NCBI GenBank assembly: GCA_964036295.1 | Contig: OZ038469.1 | Location: forward strand, 18,037,591-18,101,590 | Length of the DNA: 64,000 nt | Direction of reading: 5' to 3' | From: Plumapathes pennacea | Lineage: Eukaryota; Cnidaria; Anthozoa; Antipatharia; Myriopathidae | Shown: one piece after another, positions 11,393 to 64,000 of the stretch | How the letters are laid out: every line of letters starts with the position of its first letter | Numbering within the stretch: the stretch's first letter is position 1 | Made by a program: the position numbers and the translations under genes | The notes under the pieces: generated by a model | The model's database searches: none | Seen by the model: the letters and a program-made list of their open reading frames with translations, nothing else | What the model was told of the DNA's origin: nothing

Positions 11393-11610
11393 GGCATAAT
11401 TGCTTGCGTTATTAACCTGTATACACTTTACCATAATCAATATCCCAAATAGTTTGAACGCAGGATTTTCAACAGTATGTCGGCAGTGATAATTCTATTA
11501 GAGTTATCTCCGGGAAGACTGATGTTGTTGATGACTGACATTAGGTACCAATCGTCCTGTAGACTATGCTCACCTGGATGGCATGAGCCGACCAATGACC
11601 TTGGAGGAAC

Positions 11611-26118
<14,508 letters not shown>

Positions 26119-42900: not shown

Positions 42901-43303
42901 ACAATACGCACACGCACGTGTACTGACGTGAACATAAAATTATATTATTATTTTAAAATTCTAAAAGCTTCATTCAATAAACACCAAGCTAATTTCAGGT
43001 TTAATCTACCTCAAATTCCTCGCTTGAGGGTCCATCTCCAGACCCAGTAGCTCTTTCTTTTAATTTGTGTACTTCTTCAGCGCTAAGTATCCGTTGTAAC
43101 AGCATAAAAATCCCCGCGGATTCGGGAGATGTCTGCAGCAAGCAGATTAATGCTCCCTCCCACGAGGCTTGGCCCAAATAGTGAGCATACAGCTTCTCTT
43201 GCTTGGAAAGTCCGTTGAAAGCTGTACGACAGTCAAGAAGGCTGATCTCTGTTTCACTTGGAATCGTATAAAGGGACAAATCAACCTCGCTAGTGGCGGC
43301 CAT
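36978..43303 (-). CDS. DPP3: Dipeptidyl peptidase 3 (family M49), 17 exons
   Basis: A cytosolic zinc exopeptidase that removes N-terminal dipeptides from short peptides. Exons in transcript order: 43303-43010, 42567-42478, 42323-42186, 41999-41925, 41627-41534, 41202-41054, 40721-40591, 40436-40378, 40284-40090, 39847-39741, 39405-39313, 39035-38973, 38743-38619, 38267-38147, 37765-37586, 37392-37242, 37117-36978. They sum to 2205 nt, or 734 aa, close to the mammalian length of 737. The M49 zinc motif HELLGH is at about 462-467, and EECRAE starts 57 residues later, the same spacing as in mammals. Other family blocks are [26 protein letters not shown] and SWYTEGETW. The start is the Met of MAATSEVDL; an in-frame ATG lies nine codons upstream at 43330. 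One intron has a GC donor. The enzyme appears complete. Confidence 0.96.
37812..37996. repeat. 38-40-bp intronic minisatellite
   Basis: Five copies of a unit close to gcctaacaatacgcggtgaa followed by aacggtaaagcgttccat lie in a DPP3 intron. Their high identity suggests recent expansion. Confidence 0.9.
38790..38852. repeat. Telomere-like 21-bp repeat, three copies
   Basis: Three perfect copies of ggttaggtttagggttatga plus a lie in a DPP3 intron. Each includes ttagg and ttaggg words like the animal telomere unit, but the unit is 21 bp and not six. Confidence 0.85.
39337..39354 (-). other. HELLGH zinc-binding motif of DPP3
   Basis: The minus strand encodes H-E-L-L-G-H, the HExxGH-type signature particular to peptidase family M49. 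The two histidines bind zinc and the glutamate is catalytic. The third zinc ligand is a Glu of EECRAE, encoded near 38,677 in the exon 38619-38743. Confidence 0.95.
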
Positions 43304-43359
43304 TTTGAAGGTATGAATCCGCGGTGTCATGTGGACAGCGGAACGCGTATCAAAAAAAT
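43304..43359. promoter_or_regulatory. Compact bidirectional promoter between DPP3 and PMVK
   Basis: The DPP3 ATG (43303, minus) and the PMVK ATG (43360, plus) are separated by 56 bp. Both starts sit in an atggcggc-type context, ggcggccat on one side and atggcggcgg on the other. With so little room, the two genes must share promoter DNA or have 5' UTRs overlapping each other's coding region. No TATA box is evident. I infer shared regulation from spacing only. Confidence 0.75.
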
Positions 43360-44004
43360 ATGGCGGCGGAAGACGGACCTCTTGTTGTTTACGTTTTGAG
43401 TGGAAAACGAAAGTCTGGCAAGGACTTTGTTGCTGCGAAACTGTTTGATGCTTTCGGGGAGGATCTCTGTGTAATAATAAGGCTCTCAGAGCCGTTGAAA
43501 TACGAGTATGCTCGCCTGCATGGCCTCAGATTTGATGAGCTGTTAGAGTCGTCCCCGTACAAAGAGCGTTACCGCACGGACATGATCCGCTGGGGGGAGG
43601 AGAAGCGAAACGCCGACCCACTGTATTTCTGTCGCTTAGCAACTGAACTGCCTTTGCTAGGACAAGAGAGGAACCGTAGCGACTACACAGTCAAGAAAAA
43701 TCACAAGCGAAAAGTGAAACAAGTTTGGATTGTTTCTGACGCTCGAAGGAAGACAGACTTGAGATATTTCGAAGAGAGATACAACGTCATCAGCGTGCGA
43801 ATAAACGCGTGTGAAGATGTTCGAGCCGGACGAGGTTGGATATTTACATCAGGAGTGGATAATGTACAGTCGGAATGTGCTCTGGATGATGCCACGTTCG
43901 ATGTTCAGCTGCAGAACGATTGTGATGATGTTAACTTTCAGAATGCCATAAAATCCCTCGTGGGCAAAGGTTCAGCGTTTGTGAACAAGGCAAGGGGGGT
44001 TTAA
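43360..44004 (+). CDS. PMVK: Phosphomevalonate kinase, animal type, intronless
   Basis: Phosphorylates mevalonate 5-phosphate to the diphosphate with ATP, in the mevalonate pathway to isoprenoids. The single open frame encodes 214 aa. A nucleotide-binding loop is near the N-terminus (VLSGKRKSGKDF, residues about 12-23), followed by RLSEPLKYEYARLHGL, SPYKERYRTDMIRWGEE and WIVSDARRKTDLRYF. These match the animal enzyme family (usually about 190-200 aa), which is unrelated to the GHMP-type kinase of yeast and bacteria. I chose the ATG at 43360 because similarity begins right after it and the context is good; the frame stays open 36 bp further upstream without an ATG. The C-terminus ends KARGV and lacks the SRL-type peroxisomal signal of the human enzyme. 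No introns are needed, which is unusual among these neighbours. Confidence 0.93.
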   Translation: MAAEDGPLVVYVLSGKRKSGKDFVAAKLFDAFGEDLCVIIRLSEPLKYEYARLHGLRFDELLESSPYKERYRTDMIRWGEEKRNADPLYFCRLATELPLLGQERNRSDYTVKKNHKRKVKQVWIVSDARRKTDLRYFEERYNVISVRINACEDVRAGRGWIFTSGVDNVQSECALDDATFDVQLQNDCDDVNFQNAIKSLVGKGSAFVNKARGV

Positions 44005-44825: not shown

Positions 44826-47800
44826 ATGAACATCCTCGCTGCTGTGACTCTGTGGTTCGTATTGGTTGTGAATCCTGCTCAGGTAAGATGCATCACTTCT
44901 CATCACCATCAGCTTCCAGCGTTTTCATTATCCCCTCAACGCAGATCACGCAAGTTTCCTTTAAACAGACAAAAGAAAGACGAAAAAGGGACACTACTCT
45001 GAGTAATGTGAAGGCAATCTTCAACAGATACATGATCACGTCCACTGGGAAGGTATGGCTGGACTGCAAAATGGTGAATTTTGTTGTCTTGTATTGTATT
45101 TGTGCTTCACTCTCTTTCTATCGCTGTGTAAATATAGTGGTAAATTGTATTCAGTGTTGTTGAACCGCATTTGTGCTTCACTCAGCTGGTCACATAAAAC
45201 ACGAAGAGAAAACAGACTACATGACTGCAGGAGTTCTTTGTACTTGTTTTCGTATTTTAAATTGTTGACCTGTTTGTGTTGTAACTACTGCAGGCCACGT
45301 ACTATGGGGAATATCCAGGGGGAGGCGCATGCGCACTGGACCCGCTCCCCATACTGGGCAAACAGCCAGGCTGGATTCAAGTTGCAGCCGGACAGGACGA
45401 TTTCCAAAACTCCCTCGGCTGTGGAATGTGCCTGAAGATCCGTGGTAGCGGCAAGGCAGCAGCACCAGACCTTTCTGGAACAACTCCAGTAAAAGGAAAC
45501 CTCTACGGATTTGTTACTGATCTCTGTGGCTCATGCAAGCAAGGTCACGTGTAACCCATGAAATATCGACCAATGACAATTAGTAATTTTGATACTAGAG
45601 TTTCTTTTGCAAACTTTATCTTGACCGGTCGTAATTATGTTTGCAACTATTGTGGAATGAGAACACACAGATTAGAGGTAGCTGTAGTAACTGTGTTCCA
45701 CTGAGCTTCTTGGGATCTAATCTTGTTCGTAATAGACCTTCTGTTACCGGTTATAATCATGGCATTTTAGTATTTTAGCTGAAATGGGCGAAAACATTAC
45801 GCACCGGGGCAGTTCCAAACTTACAGTTCAGTTTTTGCGGCTTAAACAGGTGACCTCGATCTATATATACCTGGAAATGGAGTTTGGCAGATCCGCTTTA
45901 AAGCCATTGAGTGCCCCACCATAAGCGGACCAGCCGGGTACATTCAGTTTAGGTTCACTGGCAGCAACGAATGGTACTTAAAGTTGCAAGTGAGAAACAC
46001 AAGGTAAGGGGATCTACTGTCAAGAGTCTAGTGTTTCCATAACTTTGTGTACAGTTGTTACATTGCTTCTTAAATATTCCCTCCGTAGGCTTCCCGTGGC
46101 GGGTGTTGAGGCGTTTGACGTGGCGAACGATGAATGGCGCTGTCTCACTCGCACATCTGATAATCATTTTTCCAGTGAAGGACTCGGCAGGTTGTTGTTC
46201 CCTTTAAAAGTTCGTTTGACCAGCATCGCCGACGAGCAGTTGGAGAGTACAATAACTTCTCCTGTAAATGACGAGAACATTCCAACACAAGTGCAGTTCA
46301 TGAGTCTACGGTTGAGTGGTATGTCACTAATGTTTTAATTATTTCAGTTATAAAATTCAACACTGTGGGTGTTACTAAAGTTACGAGTTATGTCACAGGA
46401 CAGTTAAACAGCAAAATGAAACGTTGTGATAAAGATAGATTGCATTTCTGGTTATTGCAATGACGTCATATGCCGTTCCTACACAGGTGGAGCTCCAGAT
46501 AACATTAAGTGCTACGGACAAGGCAACAGGGAATCCACACGGAAAGGTTATTGTTATTTCCTGTTATTTTCTCGGAACTTGCTCTGTCAACCATCTTTTT
46601 TAAAATCTGTGTTTGTAAAAGAATGCTTTCAAAAAGTACCTCCGCCGTTAGAAACAGCTTAACCTGACCTTGTGATGACCGCAACTGACGGCTCACTTGC
46701 ACTGCAGGTGACGACAACTTCTGCGTAGGAAAAGAGGATGGGATATACGCTGACCGCCACGACTGTACTGCTTTTTACTTGTGCAGCAGAGACCGAACAT
46801 TCAGAAAATTCTGCCCGGCAGGACTAAAGTTTAACCCACTTATCAGAAATTGTGACGATCCTGAAAATGTGAACTGCCAAGAGCAAGACCAACAGAAACA
46901 CGTCCTCGTCAAGAACAAGAGCAATGACTGGAATAAGAATGAAGAAACAGCCATAAATAATACAAAAATCTTTATAGAGCAAAACAATAGTGGTTTCTTG
47001 AACGAATATGAGACTCCCGCACACATTACAGCCAGCCCAGCTCTGCCCACGAACGATACGAGACTGAACTCCAACCAAATGTGGAACGATACGAGACTAA
47101 ACTCCAACCAAATACGGAACAATAGCCACGAGTATAGCTTAACGGGAGTAAAAGAAGCTGAACATGCAAGAAATATCAGCCTAAAGAAAAAATATGAGAA
47201 TAGAAACCATTCTTCTATTGACTACGTATCACATTCCCTTGTGAAGACAAATGCGGTTAAAAATACAGAACAAATGCGAGGAACCAACGACAAGGAAAAC
47301 GAAACTGGAAGTTATATTGATTTTACAAGTACGCAAGAGCAGAATAGAATCCAACCAAATACCTTGAGTAGAAATATCCTCAAGTGGGAGAACAATTTCG
47401 TAGCGCCAGCGCTCAGGATGGACAGCAGTCTAAAACAAGGATATCACGACAATGACACAAGAAAAAACAACACAACTCTTACAAGTGTTAAACTTCGCAC
47501 TGTGTTCCGAGGAAAGCGTCCATTGGTTAATGATGGGCATGCCAACATTGAAGAGTTAAAGGTCGTTCAATCTGTTCACCCGGGAAAGAGCCTTGAGGTT
47601 AGTTTGCCGACAGTAGAACCATCAAGTTCGACTATGTCTAGAATCATGGGGAGAGAGAAAGGCAAAAATGATGATTCTATACAAAATAACGGTCTTCTGG
47701 AATCATTGAATTCAAAGGACAACGGGAATCTCCTTTTAAAGAAAGTCATGAACCAAGAAAAGGTTGGAGTTTCCAAGATCTTGCCAGGACAGACGCTCAG

Positions 47801-48806
47801 TGGACTTGGTATCGAGCGAGTCGCTGCACAAAGATACAGTCATGAAATATCTAATAAAAGTGTCGATAATTCATTTCAGACACCACCACTACAGCTTGAA
47901 AAAAATAGACCAAGAAACAAGTCAAGTTTTGTGTTACTCCTCAGGAATTCTATCAATAAAATGCCATCACAGGTGGAGCCAACCTTGAAACAAATAATTA
48001 ACACACAACACAAAACCAGTGTCTCGCGACAAATATATGGGAAAGACAAGAACTATTTTGACGATCGGAGCACCAAAGGAATGCTTATCAGCAGTAAAGA
48101 AAATGAAACGAATGGAAAACAAAATTCTGCTCAAGAAGCAAATAGCAGTGGATCTTCCCCAGAGGACGAATACTTTGAGGACACAAATGACGTCATAATC
48201 GACCTCGCTGAGAAGCAAAGGACTTCATTTGTCAGACGTAAAGGAGCAAATAACACCAGAATAACTGAGTTGCCGCGCTTTAGAGGTTGGCACAAGACTG
48301 TGCACAGCCCTCGCCTGGAACACCAGGAAGTGAAAGAAGATAAATGTGAGTGCGAGTGATTCGCTCAGGGCGAACTTTACATTGGTTTACTTGTTGACTT
48401 TGTTTGGCGCGTGCCTTGTTTTGATATATTTTTCACTATAGCTCGCTTACAACGTAAACTGCTCATCAACAGAGAAAGGAACGAATATGACGATTTATTG
48501 ACAACTAATTCCAATCAAATTTCCAAGCCAACAAAAGCAAAGCAAGCAAGTCTCACGAGCAACTTCTCACTGGAGCAGACGAAGTCTTTGGGTTGTTTCT
48601 TCTCCTGCATTAGTTCTTATACCTAATACCATAATAAAATGATAACGGGCCACCTAAATACTTTCTCCTGACTTTCTGTGTTTTCCTCTCAAGATGGGGA
48701 AATGAAAGACAGCGATCTGGACGTCCACAAAGGAATGGTCGACATTCAGATTGATGAATTTAAAGACAAAGTCACACTTCACATGAGGCAGGACGGGCGC
48801 CCTTGA
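44826..48806 (+). CDS. Secreted expansin-like protein with CBM14 domain and long Asn/Ser-rich tail (expansin gene 1)
   Basis: Exons: 44826-44882, 44945-45052, 45294-45543, 45850-46003, 46089-46318, 46487-46546, 46708-48345, then 48694-48806 (869 aa). An alternative last exon at 48442-48626 gives 893 aa, and read-through to the stop at 48357-48359 gives 836 aa. Exon 1 is a signal peptide (MNILAAVTLWFVLVV). Exon 3 encodes a double-psi beta-barrel: ATYYG near its start, GGGACALDP, LGCGMCLKI and FVTDLCGSC, whose Asp matches the essential Asp of bacterial expansin. Exons 4-5 encode a CBM63-like domain (NEWYLKLQVRNTRLPVAGVE). Exon 7 opens with a six-Cys CBM14/peritrophin chitin-binding domain and continues as about 480 Asn/Ser-rich residues with many N-x-S/T sites. 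Expansins loosen polysaccharide networks without hydrolysis; pairing with CBM14 points to chitin. Exact substrate unknown. Confidence 0.88.
48442..48626 (+). other. Alternative terminal exon of expansin gene 1
   Basis: The donor at 48345/48346 (aaatgtgagt) is strong. Two acceptors downstream both continue the frame in phase 1: this exon, ending SCISSYT then stop, and 48694-48806, ending RQDGRP then stop. Each is followed by its own AATAAA (48633-48638 and 48914-48919), so both could be real 3' ends. Which one is used cannot be told from DNA. Confidence 0.55.
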
Positions 48807-48913
48807 AGCGCATGCGCAGTTTCTGTGGTACACTTTGTAAAACTAAGCTTGTACTCCTTCAGCAAGCTAGACGTTAGCAACTCTCCACAGTCCACAAAGC
48901 AAAGTATTGAGAA

Positions 48914-48919
48914 AATAAA
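48914..48919 (+). other. Polyadenylation signal, expansin gene 1 distal end
   Basis: A canonical aataaa lies 108 bp after the stop at 48806. It is the natural partner of the terminal exon 48694-48806. Confidence 0.6.
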
Positions 48920-50568
48920 TATCTCGTTAAGATGATCTGCGACTTCGCCATAAACTATTATATATATACATGAACATAAAAAAATATCCCTTTCTCTGCC
49001 AGTTTTAGAATACGAGTTCTCCCAAACATAAAGTAAGAAACTGTGTGACTAATGAAATGTGAATTCATATCTCAATTCAATTTTACTTGGTATCACTCAT
49101 GTCAAGTTCTCCATACTGAACAATGTATCTCTGGCTCTTGGAGGCGAAATGTTTAAACTATAATACAAAGAACAGAACACCTGTCGACTTGTCTAGATTA
49201 ACAGGTTACCAAGTCAAGTGAACAATACTGGACATATTTACAATGAAATCAGACTCATATGAAGTTAAAATTTATCAGTGAGTTAGTTAATTTGTTCTTT
49301 TGTTATGGCGCCGAACAAATTTGTTGTAGGTGAGTTGGTTCACTTAGAGGCGATGATTGATCATCAATGTATATTTTTGATTCTTGTATTGCTGTCTTGT
49401 TGTCATTGCTGTCTCTCTTTTTGTCTCTAGTATTTTCTGTCTATCCTGCAGTGGTCGAGGTCGTATTCAAAACAACGTGTACTGGCGGAAACAGTATTTA
49501 CAGGTCTGAAATATAGAAAATGTGATTTAAAAACATCTACAATATTGCTGATACTTTTTAAAATAGAATTTCTATCGGACAGTTCAGACCTGCACTGTTC
49601 CTGTTTTCGCTAGTATACAATAATATATCTACAAACGCAGTCACACCACACATCAACGCCGGTGAAAACGTAAAAGCATTGGTTCCCACCGCCTGCCTTT
49701 TGGAACAACACATCTTTTCCAGTTTAGTTTAAACGCTAATCTCTGAAGCCCGTGTTAATGAAGTCGAGGTAGATGGACACGGGGAGTTTATGATGAATAT
49801 GTCAGACAAAATAAATAAATGTAAATAAATTTTAACACGATTTGTATTTCTCCCGGATAGTTTTAAGGGGTTAAGTTGCAATTGGGACGCAAGTTCTGTT
49901 CTTTTCCCCAGTCACACCCTTAATTTCTTTGTTTCATGTGCTTGTAAATTGTGTGCCTTTATACGTTATTCTACTTGTAATTTGTAAAGGTGGCAAATTC
50001 ATTAAACTAAACTAAACTAAACTTTTGTGCTAGGTAATTTATAAGTAACTAAATAAATTTTACTGATCGCCACTGACACTTAAAGGCAGCAGAATACCAG
50101 AATACCAGACATCAGAAAAGTGTCAGCAACTCAAAATGTCCGTCATGAAGCCCAGAACAGCGGCCACAGAAGAATACGACCAAGCAAACTTTGTTTAATC
50201 CGTCATGAAGCCAAGAATTGTGGCCACAGAAGAATACGACCAAGCAAACTTTGTTTAATCCGTCATGAAGCCAAGAATTGCGGCCATATGAGAATATGAC
50301 TAAAGAAACTTTGTTTAATTCACCTTTGCCGCACAATACACCTGTTATGAAATGGACACTTGAAGCACTAAGCAGGTGCATGCCTACCACTAATTTTTAT
50401 TGTTCGCTTCAGATTTCAGGCCAGGAGTTTCCTGTCTCGTGTTATTACTGTCATGTCTTGAGTTTGCGCAGATTCTGGTGAGTGGCGTAGCCCTCGATTC
50501 TATAAATAGCTTTACACGTTGAACTTTTCAGTCTTGAAAATGTCTAAAGCTCGACCATGTCCACACAG
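48920..50568. other. Intergenic region between expansin genes 1 and 2
   Basis: About 1.6 kb with no supported exon. It must contain the gene 2 promoter and, if gene 2 is secreted like its neighbours, its unlocated signal-peptide exon. The only clear structure is a 60-bp tandem repeat at 50,138-50,318. Confidence 0.5.
50138..50318. repeat. 60-bp tandem repeat, three copies
   Basis: Three near-identical 60-bp units (ccgtcatgaagccaagaatt... gaccaagcaaactttgttt) follow head to tail, 250 bp upstream of the first recognised exon of expansin gene 2. They have no coding interpretation. They may be promoter-proximal. Confidence 0.9.
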
Positions 50569-52889
50569 GGAGACACATCGATGGAAAATGTAAGGGCAAT
50601 ATGGAGCAGATATAGTCAAACGTTTCAAGGAGATGTATGTTTTTTGCATTATTTTCTGGTGGATTTTCTGTTAGTCCGTTTAGTCGTTTCACTTCTGTCT
50701 TTCTTTGGCTGACGTTTTTGTGCAACTTAAAGACACAGCATTGCAAGGTATGTGATAACGTCTTTAAAAAAATACAAGTGACTGTAGACAGCGTAAACTG
50801 ATTTTACGACATACTAATTAAACAAAAAACTTAAGTTAACGACACACCATTAAGTGACGTGTTCATGTCACATGATCTTCGTACAGAGCACGTACTACGG
50901 CAACTATCCAGGCGGAGGAGCATGCGCACTGGACCCTTTGTCACCGCTAAACAGGCAGGCAGGCTGGATCAGAGTTGCAGCGGGAAAAGATGATTATCAG
51001 AAGTCGCTTGGATGTGGCATGTGTATTGAGATCACCGGTAATGGCGAACCAACGACATCAGCCACGGGCGGAGCGACTCCGATAACAGGCAAAACCAAGG
51101 CTGTTGTCACGGACCTGTGTGGTGGTTGCCAGCAGGGTAAGAAACCTGGATTGAGATACGACGGTGTTGCAAAACCTAGCGATTATAAGGAGCTTCACTG
51201 TTACTGTGATATTTGACAGTACCTATAATGAAATTTCTCGTTGGATTGCTAGTAAGAGACGCAAAACAAACCAGGCTGAATGTTTGTTAACTAAACTAGT
51301 TCTTTTAAATACTAGCTTTCCATTGGATGTTATTAAAGCCTCCTTCTATTACCACTGCAGGTGGGTTTGATTTTTACATTCCTGGAGACGGCAAGTGGAA
51401 GACCGAGTTCAAGGCCATCGAGTGTCCGACGCTGGCGGGAAACGACGACAACATCCAGTTCAGATTTGTAGGCAGCAATCTGTGGTATATCAAACTACAA
51501 GCGCGCAATTCAAAGTACGCAGATAAACCGTAAACAAAACAAAAGTGCATGCATAGATAACTTGACAATCACACAAGTGTTTGTTATCACGTACAACAGA
51601 TTGTGGTAAACGTAGATGTGAATAGGCAACACTACAGGAAGCTTGTCAGCTAAGATAACGCGATACGTTTGACGCAGGGTGGTAACCGTCGGCATGGAGA
51701 TCTTCGCCAGAGAAGACTGGGTTTGCATGAAACGACTAGATGACAACTACTTTACTGAAAATGGCCTGGGGAAACTGGAATTCCCCATGCGAGTTCGAGT
51801 GACGAGCATCAGCGGGGAACAACTGGAAGGCACGATCCCGTCTCTAAAGAATGACGTCAACATTCAGAGTGGCTTTCAGTACTCTGGTTTTTTACCTGGT
51901 AAACATGCAGCATGTATTTACGCCATCCAACCACTGTTACTCTACGGCATTTTTTACTGAATTGAGCGTCCAACCTTGTCTGCAGCTAATAATTGCAGAT
52001 AGCTCTGTCCCCTTTATAAAGCTGGGCATCAAGAAATAAATATCAAGTATCCACGAAACTTTCATCAACTGCCGATCCTCCGTTGCGTAAAAGGACGAAA
52101 AATAGTTTTCCAAAGGATATCCATGTATTGCAGCTAATTTGCGAGCTATAGGTGTCAAACTTATATTCTCCCGTTAGTGTCCAGATAATCTACAGAGCAT
52201 ACCTGGTCGATACATGAACAGAAGATGAAAGCAGATCCTGAGTGCAGCGCTAATGCAGCAAACGTGTAACCGCTGAATCCACGATGGCGATATTTCTTAC
52301 TGTATGTTTCTCTTATTTCAGCCAGTAAACCTGAGAGCATCAAATGTTACGGTCAAGGAAATATACCTGGAGGGGGAGGTAAAGCTTAGAGCTTACTAAT
52401 AGAATTACGTATATACTTGTTGGCATATAGTGACCACTAATGATTACATTAACAAGCGATAGCAACCAGTGCCTTGCATTTCTCACCAGGTGCGGCCACT
52501 AAGCCAAATATAATCAAACCTCCTGCAGAGAATGCTGTCACTCCCGAAAAAGAAACGGAAACTAAACCTTCTGAAGCAGCTCCTATTCCAGGAAAAACCC
52601 CGGGAACTGAACCTTCTGAAGTTGTAGGTACGTTTACTATATGAAATGTCGGCGTTCGGCAAGTCCAGCATTTTTATTAACCTGGCTTGTTCTTCCTAAC
52701 CAACTAGGGGTCTCCTTTTGCAAAGAAAAGAAAGATGGCTCGTACCCAGACCCAGAGGACTGCGCTTCCTTTATCATCTGCAGTAACGGGATGATGTACA
52801 AGAAATCATGCCCACCAGGGCTGAAGTACAATGCCAAAATCGGTGTCTGTGATTGGCCGAGAAACGTGGAGTGTCCTCAAGACAGCTAA
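50569..52889 (+). CDS. Expansin-like protein with C-terminal CBM14 domain (expansin gene 2; 5' exon not located)
   Basis: Exons: 50569-50634, 50887-51136, 51361-51514, 51678-51898, 52322-52378, 52490-52627, 52708-52889, giving 355 aa from the first recognised exon. Exon lengths and phases match gene 1 (250 and 154 nt for the central two). The first exon carries the short pre-barrel segment SMENVRAIWSRY and can be entered in phase 0, where gene 1 has its signal-peptide junction. I could not find the signal exon; an in-frame ATG at 50557 is an alternative non-secreted start. The barrel has STYYG, GACALDP, CGMCIEI and VTDLCGGC; the CBM63-like part has LWYIKLQARN. A Pro/Glu/Thr linker (exon 52490-52627) leads to a complete CBM14 (FCKEKKDGSYPDPEDCASF, CGW-type end). 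AATAAA is at 52940. It is a short version of gene 1. Confidence 0.87.
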
Positions 52890-52939
52890 ACTTACAGAAC
52901 GCAGCAGATAGAGGCCAATTCAATACCAAAGTAAATCTG

Positions 52940-52945
52940 AATAAA
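52940..52945 (+). other. Polyadenylation signal of expansin gene 2
   Basis: A canonical aataaa lies 51 bp after the gene 2 stop codon. Confidence 0.7.
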
Positions 52946-53189
52946 GTTTTCCTTATAATTAACGTCAGACTGGCGGAGTGCGTGTGTGAACAATCAAACG
53001 TGAATCAAAAGCTGCGCTAACTATCCAAAAAGGGAAATATTTTACAATTTATTTGTCAATTGAAAGTTAATTCAGATATCCTGAACCGTTTGAAGCTTTG
53101 CAAGCCCTTTGAGCAGTATTATTTCCAGTGTGTTCAATTTTTATAGTTTTATGCCACCAGGGTAAAATGATAGAGAAACTGGCAACATA

Positions 53190-53762
53190 CAGTGGAACCC
53201 CGCCTTACGGCCACCCCGGTATTACGGCTACTTCGGTATTACGGCCAGCCCGGTATTACGGCTACTTCGGTATTACGGCCATTCTTTTTTTGTCCCGAAC
53301 AAGCCCAGTCACTTTCTTACCTGAAAACCCCATTAACACGGCCACCTCGTTAATACGAACAACGGCCACTTTATGAAATCCCTACAGACCATTTCCTTTA
53401 TAAATTTATCCCGTTAATACGGCCACTCAGACGAAATGTGAATGCTAAAATCCGATTTTTTCAAACCGTCTACATAACTAAGTTATTTGCTGGCTGTTAA
53501 AAGTGAATTAGGAGATCTTCGTTAGTGTAGTACTGTACGAATTTGTGGAACTTTATCCTGTTTATTAATTCCAGTTTTGTTCATCTTAGTTTGGTTATAA
53601 TAAATTTCTTCTGCGCTCTAGATACTCACAAATAGTTCATTTTAAGTCAGATTTCATTGTAACTGACATTACATAATTTTAAACGTTAATAAGGCCACCC
53701 CAAAAATATGGCGACAGCTTTTTGTTTCGATGGTGGCCGTATTAACGGGCTTCCGTGCACTT
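53190..53762. mobile_element. About 570-bp non-autonomous DNA transposon, pogo/Tc1-like ends
   Basis: The left end (TA then cagtggaaccccgccttacg) and the right end (reverse complement aagtgcacggaagcccgtta) are diverged inverted repeats containing the shared word acggccac. Many copies of ggtattacggc and ccgttaatacggccac fill the left third. TA flanks both sides. No transposase frame is present. It lies between expansin genes 2 and 3. Confidence 0.65.
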
Positions 53763-54262
53763 TAAAAAGCGACAAAATAGTCAGTCAGAGGCCGTTTGCA
53801 CAATATATAATAATGATAATTTATAATTTAACAATTCGATGATATGTAATGAAAGGCGAAAGTATTCTATAATAGGTATATGTGTTCTCTTGAATACATC
53901 GAAGATAGCATTTGCTAGTGATGAGTTTTAGCATTATTTAGACACCCGATGGGGAACCAAACGCTGGCAATATTACACAATAATTAAGATACATCACTAA
54001 TTATGTTGTTATTGAAAGGATCTATTTAAGTCTTGTATAGATCTAAAGAAATTTACGCACGTCATTGTTGTAAACCTTTTAGTAAAAGCCTGATGAAGAT
54101 CATTACTGTGAGAACCGGCTGTTGCCTGCCCAACTTCATGAAGATGCACGACGTCTAACTGAAACAAAGCGACTGGAATACTGAACACGAGTAACGTTGG
54201 CCGTATTAAACATAACATCTGAAGCATATGTAAAAGAAACAATTGTTCTATCTATAGAGAAA
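53763..54262. other. Intergenic, nothing recognised
   Basis: AT-rich sequence between two transposon-like elements. I see no exon, repeat or regulatory site that I can support. Confidence 0.5.
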
Positions 54263-54683
54263 CCCGGGGGGGGGGGGGGGGGGTACTCAATAGGAATTTG
54301 GGTAGGGGTGTTCCGCTGACTCTATAAAACCCTGCCCCTATTCAAGACACAAAAATGGAAATTTTGCTACCCTGTCTAAGACAAAGTGCTCTAATTTGAT
54401 ACCCTGTTCAAGACTAAGTTTAGATAAGTTAGCCTGCGTTGCACGCGTTTCTACGGACATATGAAGAAATCACGCGAAAATGACGATAGCAAAAATGTGG
54501 TTGAGGGGGAGGGGAAGAGGAGAGAATATTCAAGTGCAGAAAATAACAGAAAATAACCCTGTTTAAGACACGAAAATGTAAAATTTGATACTCTGTTTAA
54601 GACAGAAGACCCTGAAAATGATACCCTATCGGCGGAACATCCCTATATAGGAAATATATGGGAGTACCCCCCTCCCCCCCGGG
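54263..54683. mobile_element. 421-bp MITE with about 50-bp inverted ends and a 7-bp target-site duplication
   Basis: The left end runs cccggggggg...ggtactcaatagg... to ggtgttccgc. The right end is its inverse, gcggaacatccctatatagg... to gagtacccccctccccccc and ggg. Identical agagaaa heptamers flank the element (54256-54262 and 54684-54690) as a target-site duplication. The interior repeats the phrase gaccctgttcaagac in variant forms. There is no transposase. A 7- or 8-bp duplication would suit a hAT-like origin, but the superfamily is inferred. Confidence 0.85.
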
Positions 54684-54690
54684 AGAGAAA

Positions 54691-55803
54691 CTCAAGGACC
54701 CCCTACACTTGACGTTTGAAAGGAATGTTAATATACAAAGGCGGATCGGTGTGTTAAGCACATTGGCTCTGGTTCAATGCGGCGCAGCCACGCGGATACC
54801 AACAAATCGTCAGGACCGGCGGCACATTTATTCGCCGCAAACGCTAGCTGGGTAAGTTTAGCCAATTCGGCTACAGTCCGTCCTATTACTTTCCAATAAT
54901 GACGGATCTTTTAGAATCGTTCTACACTATTGGTAGCACCCATGACATAAGTCAACTGTCGTTACATTCCGATAGAACTTTAGCTCTCTGTTCAGTATAA
55001 ATCCCGCTTTACCACGTACGGCGGCGGGTTAATTTTAGACAAAGTTTTGCAAAGTAACTCGAGGTTTGCGAGCAAACGTACACATCGTTTTTCCTGAGCC
55101 GTGATGACTGACAGATCGTGTATACTTCCTTTGTGAACTAAGCAAGATTAAATTTATGTAAATATATACTAAACAAGGGAACGCAAGCCACTTCTATCTG
55201 AACTTTGTTTTGCATGCTTATCGAAAGGAACAAGTAAGTCTTGTCACTAAGCAAGCACAAAGCCAAATCAACCGTCACTATTAAATATAGACTCAGGTTG
55301 CTGGAAAGAAACTGTCCACTTTTTACTAGGGCATAGTGGCTAACTTGTGCGGAAGACATGTGTGCATGGTCAAGGGAACTCTATCGAGTGCTGAGAGCCA
55401 TTATCACAGCGTATTACTGCACATCATCGTTGTTGTGAAGTTTGCAACTAAGGAACGTTCGTCATTGCCACGCTTGGACACTCAAATAAAGCGTCACCAG
55501 AGGATTATTGTCTCTGGTTCATTCCATTTCCGGGGGGGGGGGGGTGGTGGGGGTGGGGGGTCACTAAAACACTAACCACGGCGAGTGATGTTGAATCACA
55601 TTGGTATTTGAAAAGGGTGCGGAAACCGGAAATTCCGCCTCGGGACAATTACATTTTAACTAAGATTTTCATGTTTCATTCGGAGTACAACATCTTGTCA
55701 GGCGCTTTGTCGGTGTGATAGAACAATCAAATTCCATTAGGATTCGATTGCCGAATAAGTGAATTATCTAATCGCCATGTTGTCTTATTTTTTTGCTGCA
55801 GAT
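54691..55803. other. Intergenic region upstream of expansin gene 3
   Basis: No coding exon was seen. A guanine-rich tract occupies 55,531-55,560. An acceptor-like tttttttgctgcag ends at 55801, just before the start codon, so a non-coding 5' exon probably lies within this interval. Confidence 0.5.
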
Positions 55804-58800
55804 ATGTCCGGACCAACAATTGCGCTTGCAATATTTGTCAGCATTACTCTTCTCAAGGTGAATACTATGTAATATATAAAGGTAGTCGATAAGTCCAGTC
55901 CAACAAATTTGCAATACTTCAAAGAGGCAATCTTTACACAACTTTGTCTTCCAGGTGTCAAATGTGTACTGTGCGAGTTCTTTGCAAGACGTGACAAATA
56001 TTCACGCGAGATTCCAATCAATCGCAGCAGAAGGCGAGGTAGGAAGGTCAGCGGAATATCTTTCTACCTACAGCGATCAACTCTAATACCCGAAGTATAG
56101 ATAAATACTTGTTTTAGATAGATAACTATATTTCACCTCGGATTGGTGATGTTGATTAGGCCTCTACCAAATACATTGCTAATGTGCCGAGAAAAACAGA
56201 ATATGAATATACTAGCGGGACCCCGTAAAATACGGTGATCGGATATTTTTTCTTTCTTTTTCCTTTTTGAAGTTCATTTCGAGCATCTTAAATGCATTTT
56301 ACAGCGTCAAAGTACAAACTTCTCTGTAGTGCGTGTACCACTCGACGAATTGTCGATCGATCGACATGAAAATCTCCCCGTTTTTTGAACATGTGGAAGC
56401 ACCAGCCCGACATCCGGTCACCTGACAGCACAAATTCTCTTTTTAAACTCACTTCCGATTTCTAAAAAAACTGTGGTCGGCATACGAGGCCAATATTTGT
56501 AATAGGTTTCTTTCAATGTGGCGGCCGTGTTGGATTTTTTGAGGAGGCCTGGGAAAGAGCGTTACAGACGGACGGACGGAAGTGAGTTAGCGTATTATTA
56601 TACAGATAATATCATATAGCCTAAGGAAAATGCAAACTTCACTAGTTAACTGACTGACTAACTTCAGATACTTCAGAAAAAATATAAGACTAAAGACTAT
56701 TTAGAGGAATATAGACCGTACCGCGGTCTTACAAGATTCTCTCTTTGAACTTGTGAAACTCTTGTTTTTCCAGGGAACTTACTCTGGAAGCCAAAATGTA
56801 GCTGGTCACTGTTCTCTGGACCCCTTATCGCCAATAGCAAGTCAACCCGGGTGGATTCAAGTCGGTGTTTCGCAAGATACCTATCTTAACTCAGTGGTTT
56901 GTGGGTCATGTCTTGAGATTAATGGAACAGGAGAAGGAGTTGGAAACGATCCTATTCAGGGCCAGTACAAGGCAGTCGTGACAGATAGCTGTTCAGGATG
57001 TAACGCTAATAGTATGGGAATTATTAAGTACCCGCCATAACCACGCATCACACTGCATACGTGTTAACATATTAAACTTTACATTGTCGTTGTATCTGGA
57101 CCCCAATCTTATCCACGTCACATAAAATATATCAACCAAGCCGACTGTTTAGCCCATCTGCTTTACATTTTAGGTTTGAACTTTGCTACCAGTGGTGACG
57201 GTCGCTGGAAGTTAAACTTCAAAGTCATTGACTGCCCTACATTGAGTGGACAAGATGGTAAAATCCAGTTCAAGTTTCAGGGCAGCAGTGCTTGGTACTT
57301 TAAACTCCAAGTGCGCAACACAATGTGAGTCTTGATTCGTGAAAACAATCGAACAGCGAAACGACAGGGGAGATAAATATAATCACATGTTGTCTGATTT
57401 ACCGATATTACGTTTCCCGTCAGAATTCCGATCGCTGGCATCGAGACTACGGTGAATGGAAGATACCACTGCATGACGCGGGAAATGGACAACTTCTTTA
57501 CGTTGTCGAAAGGACAATATATGGACGTCCCGCTCAGAGTGCGGCTGACTTCTATCACAAACGAACAGCTGGAGACCACCATCAACGAAATAAAGAATGA
57601 CGTCAGTATTTCCAGTGATAAGCAGTTTTCGGGCTTCGACACAGCAAGTAAGACATCACTATAGAACGCACTTATTCAGAGAAAATAACAATATAAAGAA
57701 AATATTATAGTCACACATTCCATTTTAAAGACTGATGACTGTTGTTAGGACTAACACCGGTTTATGAATTTTACAAGGCGACCCATCCAAAATAATTTGC
57801 TTTGGCCAGGGAGGCAACGCTCCATATCCTGCTGGTGGACTCGGTAAGTGCATTCCAGGTTTCAGAAAGGCCTGAGGTAGTTCTTATTGTGAATCTGTCC
57901 TGAGTGGTTGTTTAAAATTATTCTCTTCAAATCAACGAGTGGGGGACACCTTCAAACGTTTACTATAGTAGTTACAAAAACGAATAATTTATCGTGTAAT
58001 TCAAGACCCCAGTGATCCCATGTCCACATCAGGAGTGGTAATTTCAACATCCACGGTGTCCCAGGCCCCAACATCTCTTTCAACCATTGGATCAGAACAA
58101 AGAACCACAAAATCTGCACCAACCTCTGACGGAATTGGTGAGTAGAGTAGTATTTATTTCCTTGTAACAAACCAATTGCAAAAAATAGCGAGGCCTGTGT
58201 TGTTAGTCATTCCCTGAGAGGCGCTTATTGTAATACCGTATCTACTCTAATTTAGGCGCCACCCAGCAAAGTATTTTTCCATTTGACTCCCTTTTAGGCG
58301 TCACGGAAAAAATATTATTGTATTTATAAGCCGCTTCGTATGAACTACGCTTCCACCAGTCACCACGCCGAATAACTGATTAACCCAACAAATCATTCCA
58401 GATCCCAGTAGTCCCGTACCAACATCAGGAGTGGTAATTTCAAAATACACGGTGTCCCAGGCCCCAACATCTCTTTCAACCATTGGATCAGAGCAAAGAA
58501 CCACAAAATCTGCACCAACCTCTGACGGAATTGGTGAGTAGAATAACATTTATTTCCTTGTAACAAACCAATTGCAGAAAAGAGCGAGGTCTGTGTTGTT
58601 AGCCATTCCCTGAGAGGCGCTTATTGTAATACCGTATCTACTCTAATTTAACCCAACTCATCATTCCAGATCCCAGTAGTCCCATACCAACATCAGGAGT
58701 GGTAATTTCAAAATACACGGTGTCCCAGGCCCCAACATCTCTTTCAACCATTGGATCAGAGCAAAGAACCACAAAATCTGCACCAACCTCTGACGGAATT

Positions 58801-61800
58801 GGTGAGTAGAATAACATTTATTTCCTTGTAACAAACCAATTGCAGAAAAGAGCGAGGTCTGTGTTGTTAGCCATTCCCTGAGAGGCGCTTATTGTAATAC
58901 CGTATCTACTCTAATTTAACCCAACTCATCATTCCAGATCCCAGTAGTCCCATACCAACATCAGGAGTGGTAATTTCAAAATACACGGTGTCCCAGGCCC
59001 CAACATCTCTTTCAACCATTGGATCAGAGCAAAGAACCACAAAATCTGCACCAACCTCTGACGGAATTGGTGAGTAGAATAACATTTATTTCCTTGTAAC
59101 AAACCAATTGCAGAAAAGAGCGAGGTCTGTGTTGTTAGCCATTCCCTGAGAGGCGCTTATTGTAATACCGTATCTACTCTAATTTAACCCAACTCATCAT
59201 TCCAGATCCCAGTAGTCCCATACCAACATCAGGAGTGGTAATTTCAAAATACACGGTGTCCCAGGCCCCAACATCTCTTTCAACCATTGGATCAGAGCAA
59301 AGAACCACAAAATCTGCACCAACCTCTGACGGAATTGGTGAGTAGAATAACATTTATTTCCTTGTAACAAACCAATTGCAGAAAAGAGCGAGGTCTGTGT
59401 TGTTAGCCATTCCCTGAGAGGCGCTTATTGTAATACCGTATCTACTCTAATTTAACCCAACTCATCATTCCAGATCCCAGTAGTCCCATACCAACATCAG
59501 GAGTGGTAATTTCAAAATACACGGTGTCCCAGGCCCCAACATCTCCTTCAGCCCCACCAACCCAGGCTCCTGGACCTGTGAGTGGAGAACTACAGAAGGT
59601 TCTAAATTTCCATGCCAGATACAAGTCGGTCTCAGCAGAAGGCGACGTAAGTTCAATGTCATCTTTTCTTCAAAGTAAGACCGGCAGTTGATCAAAACAG
59701 AGAGAAAAGTAAAGATCAATGCAACTTTAACACAGAAACACAGCGTCATTTGTACTGTGCTCCAATAATGTTTGCTCCCGAAGATGAAAGACTAATGCTC
59801 GAAGTCCGCTCAAACTTCTCAACGGCGCACAGTTTTCATACATTATATCCATTAATCATATATCCTAATAAAAGTCGAAATGACAATGATTTTTCCAATA
59901 GGACCACTTGCAAATCAGTAAGTCCATTATTTTGCAGGGAACTTATTACGGAGACCAGAACGGAGGTGGCTACTGTTCTCTTAACCCTTTATCACCCATT
60001 GCCAGTCAGCCCGGGTGGATTCAAGTTGCAGTCTCTCCAGACACTTATCTCAATTCTATTGCCTGTGGAGCATGTCTTTTGATTTCTGGGACCGGCCAAG
60101 GGCTTGGAAACAATCCGATCGAAGGGCAATACCAAGCCGTGGTGACGGATAGCTGTCCCGGATGTTACGCCAACAGTAAGCCTGTCAGAACCTCGAGCAG
60201 GATTATTTTACAATTTATATTCAAAAGCTGTCGCTGACATGCATGCTTAACGCCTTTTTACAATGCTGAGATGGAAGACAATCGTTTTCACTGTCAAACT
60301 TTGTTTCGGACATCTATAATAGTTTGGCTCCGGATGTTAATATGCAATTCAACTTTTGCAGAGTACTATTACACATCTTGAGCATAACCATTGTATATTC
60401 GCTTTTATACTGCTAATCTCTCTTTAAGGCGGACACCCTCGGAAATAGCATTATATAATAATAATAATATAATAATAATAACTTTATTTAGGCAGACGGT
60501 CAGCATCACTGTAAGGTGCTTTTCAGCTGAGCTCTGCATACAATAATATTAGAAGAAAAGAATGACTAAATTACAAAAACTGACTAAATTACAATAAAAG
60601 GCTAACTAAATTACAAATAATTACATTTATAATTACAATAAATCTAGTTAAATTACAATAAAAAGCTAGGATTAATATATAAGCTAAAATCTAAGCTATT
60701 ATATAAAAAAGTAAAGTAAAGTAAATTTAGTGTCTGCCTTTAGAAAGAACTGATGTAGCCTGACACCCAAACGTCAAACATGAAACGCATAGTCTTATTA
60801 CAGTGTATGACAGTCATATGACGGACCGGTCTGCGTGCCTTTCAGTCCTAACGGAAAAAGTTTTAAAATATGTAGCATACTAATCCAATAGCTCATATGC
60901 ACTTTGAACGCCCGTGAACAGTAACCTTGACAACACCAATTTGCGCCGCTTGTTATTTAATCGGAGAGGGATGAATTTACAAAACTCACAGAGAAGGGTG
61001 GATGTGGGCTTGCAAAGGTCGCGGCCTGGATCGCAAAGTGCATAACCAACAAAAAACGCGAAGATAAAAAGTGCTGTTGATCAGAGCCCAGAAGGGGGAA
61101 AGCGAAAAAAAGGGAGCAAGTGACTCGAGTGAGTAGTAAAAAGACTGCGTAAATGAGTTGTCTTTCGAATGAAGTAAAGTGCAGTGATTCAGATTGTTTA
61201 CTTTTTCTCCCCGCCTAAGAGAAGTGTCCGCTTGGAGAGAGTTGACTGTATATATTCTTATACCTTTGTTTATGAATTGCAGGTCTTGATTTCGCCACAA
61301 GCGGTGACGGTCGCTGGAAATTAACGTTCAAAGCTATCGACTGCCCTACATTGAGTGGACAAGATGGTAAAATCCAATTCAAGTTTCAGGGCAGCAATTC
61401 TTGGTACTTTAAAATCCAAGTGCGCAACGCAATGTGAGTAACGCTTTCGATCAAACTATTATGTAAGACTCCATTTAACGTCATGATGACGTTAAATAGC
61501 AAAGAGTTTCAGTGGAATGTCACAACGCACATCCCTTTCAACTGGAGCAACTAACACTGCTTGTACAATCATTGCTGTTCAGATATTTATGTTGCAAGAG
61601 TAATTGGTTTACTTACTGAGTCTCATTTATCGTCAGTATTCCTGCCGCTGGCATGGAGGCCACTGTAAATGGAAAATACCACTGTATGAAACGTGAAGCG
61701 GACAACTTCTTCAGTCTTGGTAACATGGGAGAAATGGACGTTCCTCTCCGAGTGCGACTGACGTCTATCACAAACGAGCAGATCGAGACCACTATCAACG

Positions 61801-63860
61801 AAATAAAGAATGGTGTTAGCATTTCCAGCAATATACAGTTTTCAGGCTTCGATCAAGCCAGTAAGTCGACAATGGCGCTATGTTACTTGGCGGTGCCCAA
61901 GGTAGCCTGCGTCGCATCCAAACTATTGTGCATACTGGGGAGAGCTTTTACATTGTGGCTTGACACACCAACATTAAAATGAGCAGTGAGTCAAAATTGT
62001 GACAGTATAAGTTATCGACGTAATGTGTTTGAGTTGGTATTGTCGCTTAGTTCATACATGCAGCAATATAAAGTAGAATTTATAGAATAGATTATAAATA
62101 ACCAGATTATAATTTCAATGGTTTTATAAAGTATAAAGTATACATCCATTCCACGTCTTCGTCCAGGTGACCCCGGCACGATTCTTTGCTTTGGTCAGGG
62201 AGACAGCGCACCATATCCTGCTGATGGGCTTGGTGAGTGCGATTGCATTGAAGTCCTTTACTGAGAGGCGCTTGTTGTAAGATATAACTGATTCATATGA
62301 GCGGCACGTTCCAACATGTCCAATTCTTTACCAGACTAAATAACTGATTAACCCAACTAATCATTTTAGATCCCAGTGGCCCTGTACCAACATCAGGCGA
62401 AGTCTCTTCCCCACCCGGGATATCCCAGGCCCCAACCTCTCTTTCAATCCCTGTATCGGAGCAAATAAGTACAGCAGCCGCACCAACCCAGACTCCAGGA
62501 CCTGTGAGCGGAGAACTACAGAAGGTTCTAAATTTCCATGCCAGATACAAGTCGATCTCAGCAAAAGGCGATGTAAGTTCAATGTCACAGTCCTTTAAAG
62601 TTAGTACGGAGAAGCTGTAATCGGGTCAGAAAATTGACTGATTGAGTTGAGGTTCACCGTTGTGAATGACATAAACATTCTCAATGAATAACATGATGTA
62701 AAGAAAGGTGAAAGTAATTACTTGCACGCAAATATCGCTGTGATTCCACAATCCTGTCACCACCCGGCACGTCAAATATTAATTTATACAGAAAGTTACA
62801 GTTGTGTACCAATCCATCTACCAACAAAGACTTAGGGCCGATGTTTTAAACAAAGTCTAATTTAGACCTGGTTTATCGCTAAATTGAAGTTTAGACGGAC
62901 GCCGTAAAACAGGGTTAACCAAACGTTAAATTGCATTTTTAGAACATGGATCGGAGTCAGTTTATAAAGACGACGTTTAGCCGTTGTCCGTTAAGCATGG
63001 CTATTGTTTAAATCTTGTTTAGACCAGGACTTTTTTAACCGCGGTCTAAACCTTGTTTAAAAAATCGGCCCTTAAAGTCTAACTTGTCAATAATGCACAA
63101 CCTCTCCACACAGCGGGAAGTTAGTAAGGATATCTTGACCCAAGAAACATATTATTTATGGTATTTAGAAAAATGGGCAAAACTATTTCATCTTTCAAAA
63201 GAAGTTTGGTTAATCAGTAAGTCCATTATTTTGCAGGGAACTTATTACGGAGACCAGAACGGAGGTGGCTACTGTTCTCTTAACCCTTTATCACCCATTG
63301 CCAGTCAGCCCGGGTGGATTCAAGTTGCAGTCTCTCCAGACACTTATCTCAATTCTATTGCCTGTGGAGCGTGTCTTTTGATTTATGGCAGCGGTCAAGG
63401 GCTTGGAAACGATCCGATTGAAGGGCTATATAAGGCTGTGGTGACGGACAGTTGTCCCGGATGTTACGCCAACAGTAAGTGAAGCAAGATCATCTCAGTG
63501 GAATTTACGTTCAAAATTTTGGCACTGCCGTAGATAGCATAATGATTGTGACATTTCATGCCAGTTGCACAAGATAGAGGATAGGGTTACCTCTTTTACC
63601 ATTTGCAGACACGTACTTTGACGATTTGTTTTCGACAAAATATATACAAACAACTTGACTGAATAAATATCAATATTATTCTTAACCGCGCGTATCATTA
63701 TAACTACAGGTCTGGATTTCGCCAAAAGCGGTGACGGTAGATGGAAGTTAACGTTCAAAGCTATCGACTGCCCTACGCTGAGTGGACAAGATGGTAAAAT
63801 CCAGTTCAAGTTTGAGGGCAGCAATCCTTGGTACTTTAAAATCCAAGTGCGGAACGCAAT
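55804..63860 (+). CDS. Multi-module expansin-like protein, at least three expansin modules (expansin gene 3; 3' end outside window)
   Basis: Exons: 55804-55857 (signal peptide, MSGPTIALAIFVSITLL), 55955-56038, module 1 at 56774-57011/57174-57324/57424-57647/57778-57843, linkers 58006-58137, 58402-58533, 58670-58801, 58938-59069, 59206-59337, 59474-59646, module 2 at 59938-60175/61283-61433/61637-61860/62167-62232, linker 62370-62572, module 3 at 63237-63474/63710-63860, then off the window. At least 973 codons keep frame. Modules 1 and 2 have identical exon lengths (238, 151, 224, 66), and module 3 repeats the first two. Each has TYxG, GxCSLxPLSPIASQPGW, a VVTDSCxGC Asp motif, and a CBM63-like WYFKxQVRN. 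Linkers are Ser/Thr/Pro-rich and end in a short FHARYKS segment before the next barrel. No CBM14 is seen within the window. Predicted role: secreted multivalent polysaccharide-binding or loosening protein. Confidence 0.88.
58006..59473 (+). repeat. Amplified linker exons: 268-bp exon-plus-intron tandem array
   Basis: Exon starts at 58402, 58670, 58938, 59206 and 59474 are spaced exactly 268 bp. A more diverged founder exon lies at 58006. Each full linker exon is 132 nt, phase 1 at both ends, and encodes a 44-residue unit with SQAPTSLSTIGSEQ and TSDGI. The copies at 58670, 58938 and 59206 are virtually identical in intron as well as exon, so the last duplications are recent. Because the exons are symmetrical, any copy number keeps frame. 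Confidence 0.95.
60410..61248. mobile_element. 839-bp non-autonomous DNA transposon in an intron of expansin gene 3
   Basis: The left end (ctgctaatctctctttaagg then cggacac) pairs with the reverse complement of the right end (cagtcaactctctccaag then cggacac). TA lies on both sides. The interior holds an (aat)n stretch and repeats of ctaaattacaataaaa, with no transposase. Its ends resemble those of the element at 44045-44252. It fills most of the unusually long intron inside module 2. Confidence 0.75.
62835..63071. mobile_element. 237-bp PIF/Harbinger-like MITE with TTA target-site duplication
   Basis: The ends gggccgatgttttaaacaaa and tttaaaaaatcggccc form inverted repeats extending over about 35 bp. 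TTA flanks both sides (62832-62834 and 63072-63074). A GGGCC-type terminus with a three-base TTA duplication is typical of PIF/Harbinger elements. There is no transposase. It lies in the intron before module 3 of expansin gene 3. Confidence 0.8.
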
Positions 63861-64000
63861 GTGAGTCTGGTGTAAAATCCTTGCTGTTTCATAATATATA
63901 ATTATGACTCCGTTCGCACTTTGTCTTGTGAAATTAGAACAAAATAATATCTATTTAATGATAGAGGCCACGTTTACAATTTTTGAAGTGCAAGCGGCAC
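63861..64000. other. Intron of expansin gene 3 at the window edge
   Basis: Follows the donor at 63860 (caatgtgagt). By analogy with modules 1 and 2, the next exon (224 nt, the second half of the CBM63-like domain) should lie just outside the window. Confidence 0.7.

Follow-up and report, generated by a model that had tools for sequence, protein, structure and literature searches.

A tandem cluster of divergent expansin genes, two of them fused to chitin-binding domains, in a cnidarian genome

The stretch of DNA analysed here, hereafter the window, comprises 64,000 nucleotides (nt) of the Plumapathes pennacea assembly (contig C8, 18037591-18101590; 290 Mb in 24 contigs) and holds the greater part of a tandem cluster of genes encoding expansin modules, in which a double-psi beta-barrel (DPBB; domain D1) is followed by a CBM63 domain. 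Exon queries were run on the window and the 39 kb downstream of it, together with a protein search of the whole genome in which the best candidates were scored. We found six modules genome-wide, all on the plus strand and within a single cluster (C8:18082887-18106344), with the 18 genome matches resolving into six sets of three exons and no module match at E ≤ 0.1 outside the cluster among the candidates scored. The barrels begin at window positions 45294, 50887, 56774, 59938, 63237 and 67735, such that five of the six modules start within the window and the barrel of module 6 lies downstream (67735 being L001:4326). An initial annotation, made from the window sequence alone, had described a cluster of three genes with three modules; these modules are real but the cluster was understated, as two more modules in the window belong to gene 3 and the sixth lies beyond it.

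Exon structure agreed across the cluster. In all six modules the phase is 0 from the helix exon to the barrel exon, 1 from the barrel exon to the next (exon A), 2 from exon A to exon B and 1 from exon B to an exon carrying the motif C[YF]GQG, and the borders of the module exons are GT-AG. Barrel exons measure 250, 250, 238, 238, 238 and 235 nt in modules 1 to 6, and A exons 154, 154, 151, 151, 151 and 151 nt, and the values for the first three modules match exactly the lengths initially given.

Spliced gene models, which are predictions from DNA alone, yielded four architectures: an expansin followed by CBM14 and a long tail, an expansin joined by a linker to CBM14, a triple expansin whose end is predicted to attach to the membrane, and an expansin alone. 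Gene 1 (44826..48359, plus strand, as are all features of the cluster) is modelled with 7 exons encoding 836 amino acids, consistent in GT-AG borders and phases. It opens with a signal-peptide exon (MNILAAVTLWFVLVVNPAQ; 44826..44882), called by a simple scan for hydrophobicity and splice donors, and a helix exon with the motif NVKAIFNRY..TGK that ends in phase 0 (44945..45052). Module 1 follows, with its barrel exon (45294..45543), exon A containing Asp82, the barrel end and the start of CBM63 (45850..46003), exon B with the remaining CBM63 (46089..46318) and the CxGQG exon (46487..46546), and the last exon encodes CBM14 (PF01607, E 2.7e-13) and a disordered tail (46708..48359). This tail has 491 residues, is rich in N, S and K and contains 16 N-glycosylation sequons. 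Gene 2 (50569..52889), whose 5' end is incomplete in the model, consists of a helix exon, module 2 (barrel exon 50887..51136, exon A 51361..51514, exon B 51678..51898), a linker and a CBM14 exon (52708..52889; PF01607, E 1e-16), with the stop taken from the open frame; three 60-bp repeats occupy its upstream flank (50139-50319). Against the PF01607 cut-off of 22.1 bits, CBM14 scored 51.4 bits in gene 1, 61.2 bits in gene 2 and 45.3 bits in a third copy beyond the window. The initial annotation had recognized the expansin modules but not the CBM14 domains that genes 1 and 2 also encode.

Gene 3 extends from 55804 to the end of the window at 64000 and continues to ~65440 (L001:2031), with three modules and a terminal Ly6-like exon. 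Its coding model starts at 55955 and runs through 22 exons as a single open frame of 1182 amino acids without the signal exon, for which the hydrophobicity and donor scan gave a candidate at 55804-55857. Module 3 comprises a barrel exon (56774..57011), an exon A in which Asn replaces Asp82 (57174..57324) and an exon B (57424..57647), and is followed by five Ser/Thr/Pro linker exons of 132 nt each (58006..59337), four of them in a tandem array. The array, a 268-bp repeat in 4.4 near-identical copies (58380-59550), contains whole linker exons, and the length of the gene 3 linker may therefore vary among individuals. At 59474..59646 a single exon joins a linker repeat, at its start, to the module 4 helix, and module 4 (barrel exon 59938..60175, exon A 61283..61433, exon B 61637..61860) is therefore assigned to gene 3. 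A linker and helix exon (62370..62572) then leads into module 5 (barrel exon 63237..63474, exon A 63710..63860), whose exon B lies downstream of the window. We rejected a gene 3 with a single module, since the exons preceding modules 4 and 5 both open as linker repeats and close as the next helix. The last exon (65103-65440, L001:1694-2031) is in phase with gene 3 and encodes a hydrophobic C-terminus preceded by a cysteine pattern that we take to be of Ly6 type; it matched PF00087 weakly over the full profile (E 1.4, 1-72 of 72) and had no relevant match in PDB. Such an end would suit a glycosylphosphatidylinositol (GPI) anchor, and an alternative end may arise if the last linker exon is read through to a nearby stop.

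Gene 4 (67319-69019), for which no 5' start was found, contains module 6, has eight cysteines in total and stops after CFGQGE. CBM14 is absent downstream in its frame, though an in-phase splice would be possible from exon B of module 6 to the long-tailed CBM14 exon at 71412 (L001:8003-9390). Within ~310 bp of that exon, at 71027, lies a helix exon resembling that of gene 1 (L001:7618-7695); neither barrel nor CBM63 is found between the two, and their usual phases (0 and 1) are mutually incompatible. The pair may mark a gene that has lost its expansin core, or it may open a further gene or provide gene 4 with an alternative end. The genes had initially been described as secreted; only gene 1 shows a clear signal peptide and gene 3 a candidate, and the same simple scan found no signal peptide in genes 2 and 4.

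Membership in the expansin family was assessed with a comparison set of 62 other expansins (60 bacterial loci and two PDB chains), gathered by similarity to the modules. The profile of their D1 domains scored 31.1-38.8 bits in the six modules, compared to 8.8 bits for the best of 3,000 shuffles, and that of their CBM63 domains 61.3-67.6 bits, compared to 10.6 bits for the best of 3,000. An independent model, NCBIfam NF041144 (expansin_EXLX1), aligned over nearly its full profile with all six (E 1.7e-21 to 3.6e-25), at 76.4-88.4 bits and hence under its curated cut-off of 100 in each case. Pfam DPBB_1 and the expansin C-terminal model had no match at E ≤ 1 in the modules scanned (1, 2, 4 and 6), and the genome search with PF03330 (DPBB), the profile proposed initially for identifying the barrel, returned 0 matches. 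Searching PDB with a profile of the modules placed YoaJ (6e-14), 9ms5 (3e-11) and 7wvr EXLX1 (3e-10) at the top, and all eight matches at E ≤ 1 are expansins or expansin-type proteins. The CBM63 half alone matched YoaJ at E 8e-11; the barrel half alone ranked expansins first, weakly (best E 0.009), ahead of non-expansins from E 0.38. These results bear out the two-domain layout initially proposed. Because NF041144 stays below its cut-off and Pfam is silent, yet the PDB ranking favors expansins and both halves lie far above shuffles, we class the six modules by homology as divergent expansins that fall outside the curated EXLX1 subfamily.

The evidence supports the cluster as native, tandem-duplicated animal genes of the expansin family, in line with the initial annotation, because the modules share introns, lie on a long chromosome beside a phosphomevalonate kinase gene and come from an assembly that includes an anemone-like mitochondrial contig. 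Purifying selection is measurable among modules 3-5, for which the ratio of nonsynonymous to synonymous substitution rates (dN/dS, NG86) was 0.126 between modules 4 and 5, 0.122 between 3 and 4, and 0.119 between 3 and 5; with dN/dS ~0.12, modules 3-5 are not relics. The remaining pairs were little informative, with synonymous distances >1.8 or not computable. Between units 4 and 5, aligned blocks track the exons, with ~35 flanking bases at most on each side and 81-95% identity.

The mitochondrial contig (contig 24, 17.7 kb) has a cox1 split by an intron bearing an open reading frame and a nad5 split around nad1 and nad3, gene names being read by eye from the frames with the exception of cox1 (PF00115), and ARAGORN found two tRNA genes on it, with anticodons cat and tca. 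We take this pattern to be that of hexacorals, sea anemones in particular. The phosphomevalonate kinase gene (PF04275) is a single open frame on the plus strand at ~43000-44000 of the window, arranged head to head with a frame on the minus strand, presumably dipeptidyl peptidase 3, and the pair possibly shares a promoter. Farther upstream, exon frames on the minus strand (11600-18270) resemble a receptor tyrosine kinase by eye, and no tRNA genes or Rfam families were found in the window.

Source and relationships were addressed with an unrooted tree of 68 rows (the six modules and 62 homologues) and with searches covering bacterial genome collections, viral contigs and PDB chains. The six modules formed one clade (support 100/100), whose stem measured 1.78 changes per column and which split into (1,2), (3,(4,5)) and 6. 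A branch supported at 97/92 set the modules, 11 loci of the Myxococcales phylum and 7wvr, which we take to be fungal, apart from the other 50 rows; because the tree is unrooted and the 7wvr branch is long, this grouping is a hint at most, and no single sister or donor was resolved. A first scan of the bacterial genome collection with the six modules gave 22 pattern matches and no relative, which set aside a close bacterial donor, and one search of viral contigs with module 6 as the query gave 6 pattern matches and no relative, which set aside a viral one. A second bacterial scan, with a mixed alignment, recovered at least 80 loci with 25-35% identity to the modules. By phylum sample, relatives at E 1e-5 were present in 42 of 377 genomes of the Myxococcales phylum (43 of 377 in a near-identical, non-independent redraw), 24 of 301 of the Chloroflexales phylum, 4 of 345 of the Bacteroidales phylum and 4 of 296 of the Lentzea phylum.

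Residues were compared with those of the bacterial expansin BsEXLX1, whose roles have been described (PMC11040781, PMC5072189; Thr12 named in PMC5072189). Thr12 and Asp71 are invariant in the six modules and Asp82 is kept in five, being Asn in module 3; the change from Asp82 to Asn stops creep by BsEXLX1 (PMC5072189), and module 3 is nonetheless constrained as a whole. The position of Tyr73, essential in BsEXLX1 (PMC11040781), is Cys in all six and in 42 of 62 homologues. Trp125 is invariant and position 126 is Tyr in all six (Trp in 58 of 62 homologues), so that an aromatic pair is preserved throughout, while position 157 is Asp in all six (Tyr in 53 and Asp in 3 of 62 homologues). Where the cellulose platform of BsEXLX1 has the triad W125-W126-Y157, the modules thus read W, Y and D; by homology they are expansins of a divergent kind, and they would not be canonical cellulose binders. 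By eye, the residue at Lys119 is T, V, Q or E, and a stretch of the SxxAFxxIA type after Asp82, filled in 62 of 62 homologues, is replaced by a gap of 8-9 residues in all six modules. The AlphaFold model of a Myxococcales relative (mean predicted local distance difference test score, pLDDT, 91; 20 sequences) has a short helix at this stretch, directly after the Asp82 strand, and judged from that model all six modules have lost the helix next to this essential position. Each module further carries one additional Cys in CBM63 and another in the C[YF]GQG exon, and we infer a disulfide between the two.

The modules share with bacterial EXLX1 (BsEXLX1/YoaJ, NF041144) the order of D1 and CBM63 and the residues Thr12, Asp71, Asp82 and Trp125, but differ in their low identity (25-35%, at least 80 loci), cysteine-rich barrel, deletion after Asp82, Trp126 to Tyr and Tyr157 to Asp replacements, extra Cys, introns and CBM14 fusion. 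Cysteine-type expansins of the Myxococcales phylum and 7wvr EXLX1 have a DxCPxC-like motif and, in part, the barrel-end Cys of the modules, but retain the stretch after Asp82 that the modules lack. Nikolaidis et al. 2014 are reportedly the source for modular bacterial expansin fusions. Such bacterial proteins are fused to cellulose- or chitin-binding domains, the latter resembling genes 1 and 2, but the available text leaves the chitin-binding family unnamed and does not mention CBM14, introns or a triple module (PMC5072189). Among fungi, ScExlx1 of Schizophyllum commune (PMC4372547) and loosenin-like proteins of Phanerochaete (PMC9888185) are chitin-binding relatives of expansins; loosenins, unlike the modules, are without CBM63, and the available text on these fungal proteins does not mention CBM14 (PMC4372547, PMC9888185).

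The family was described in 2018 as ranging over plants, bacteria, fungi and amoebozoa (PMC6300095). The initial statement that expansins have no established role in animals generally calls for two qualifications. Plant-parasitic nematodes have expansin-like effectors, and a whitefly has an EG45-like protein; these are expansin-related animal genes like those of the cluster, but are acquired and plant-directed, and the whitefly protein is a barrel only (PMC11800479). In the sea anemone Exaiptasia pallida, Aipgene19685 (Expansin-YoaJ), a pedal-disc gene, unites barwin-like and pollen-allergen-like superfamilies with an invertebrate chitin-binding one in a single protein, much as genes 1 and 2 do (PMC6626399). 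The CBM14-expansin architecture is therefore already in print, as far as an annotation in one table row allows comparison, and the available text does not describe a cluster, a triple-module gene or the residue changes (PMC6626399); sequence databases probably already name such proteins. That row was the only cnidarian expansin found in our searches of open-licence literature, among the papers listed, and no functional study of one was found there. Expansin appears in PMC7831173 only as a word in the reference list, animal terms were not found in a 2022 review of expansins (PMC10095946), and the text of PMC10216261 does not mention expansin, pedal or Exaiptasia. Expansin-YoaJ is also listed among whelk egg fluid transcripts that were assigned to bacteria (PMC10913743).

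What such proteins might do in a free-living animal can be approached through their fusions and altered residues. For the target, the initial annotation had offered chitin, algal cellulose and prey walls as guesses; of these, the CBM14 fusion together with the changed cellulose platform would favor chitin. The reading that we prefer, tentatively and at slightly below even probability, is that secreted or surface-held expansins loosen the soft chitin matrix of the animal itself without lysis. CBM14 would anchor the protein to chitin, the Trp-Tyr pair of CBM63 would stack on a sugar chain and the groove of D1, which contains Thr12, Asp71 and Asp82, would disrupt hydrogen bonds between neighboring chains, while the triple-module protein could grip several chains from the cell side; ectodermal or pedal-disc coats might thereby be stretched, remodeled or bonded. 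A more specific form, which we hold with less confidence, is that the modules represent a chitin-directed subfamily, marked by the lost helix by Asp82 and by Asp for Tyr157, that is self-directed and related to growth or adhesion, including a membrane-anchored triple expansin that would pull on several chains.

Consistent with chitin loosening, the Exaiptasia Expansin-YoaJ gene with the same architecture was raised 2.12-fold in the pedal disc (PMC6626399), chitin synthases are expressed and chitin is present in the sea anemone Nematostella (PMC10216261), chitin is bound by a fungal expansin that also enhances chitinase (PMC4372547), and four loosenin-like proteins from fungi show stronger binding to chitin than to cellulose (PMC9888185). 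Cellulose synthase (PF03552) had no match in this genome, in a search that was positive in 3 of 14 control genomes. Several points weigh against the reading. The chitin-binding loosenins gave no substantial chitinase boost (PMC9888185), and chitin binding was weak in four of five microbial expansins (PMC11040781). Within the cluster, CBM14 is missing from gene 4 and from the triple-module protein, Asn occupies position 82 in module 3, and all six modules have Cys for Tyr73, Asp for Tyr157 and the gap after Asp82, in addition to the NF041144 scores under the cut-off and the silent Pfam models. The two matches above the cut-off in the chitin synthase search of this genome (E 3.3e-10 and 1.3e-7) came from a model that is generic, being positive in 4 of 14 control genomes as well.

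Alternatively, these may be chitin-binding matrix or adhesive proteins, with the expansin fold retained as a scaffold for binding sugars, so that they would cross-link the pedal-disc coat without loosening anything. CBM14, the glycosylatable tail of gene 1 and the multivalent triple-module protein fit a cross-linker, as do the deletion beside Asp82, Asn82 in module 3 and the increase of the Exaiptasia relative in the adhesive pedal disc (PMC6626399), but invariant Thr12 and Asp71, with Asp82 in five of six modules, would exceed the needs of a pure binder, and we consider this alternative unlikely, if still a serious one. A role in digestion or symbiosis, with loosening of cellulose from algae or detritus, would explain why Trp125 and an aromatic residue at 126 are kept, and the nearest family is named cellulose-binding; Tyr157 replaced by Asp, the T, V, Q or E of the Lys119 column, the assignment of CBM14 to a chitin-binding family and the report of the Exaiptasia relative from the pedal disc (PMC6626399) make this improbable. 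A defensive role, with binding to peptidoglycan or to the chitin of fungi, seems less probable again: two matched solved bacterial expansins are named peptidoglycan-binding and a surface-held form would suit recognition, but no known immune domain was recognized in the fusions scanned. A pseudogene cluster or bacterial contamination, with which the silent Pfam expansin models would agree, is scarcely credible, and both were rejected, given shared introns, one long chromosome, conservation that tracks exons and dN/dS ~0.12 in modules 3-5.

As we understand their known range, expansins are looseners of plant walls and the tools with which microbes and plant parasites attack plants. A free-living animal that keeps and duplicates expansins under purifying selection and fuses them to a chitin-binding module of animal type raises the possibility that loosening without lysis acts on animal chitin as well, and the cluster is a test case for the remodeling of soft chitin in cnidarians. 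As a natural active-site variant, with a helix deleted and the aromatic triad changed, it also bears on the unsolved mechanism of expansins.

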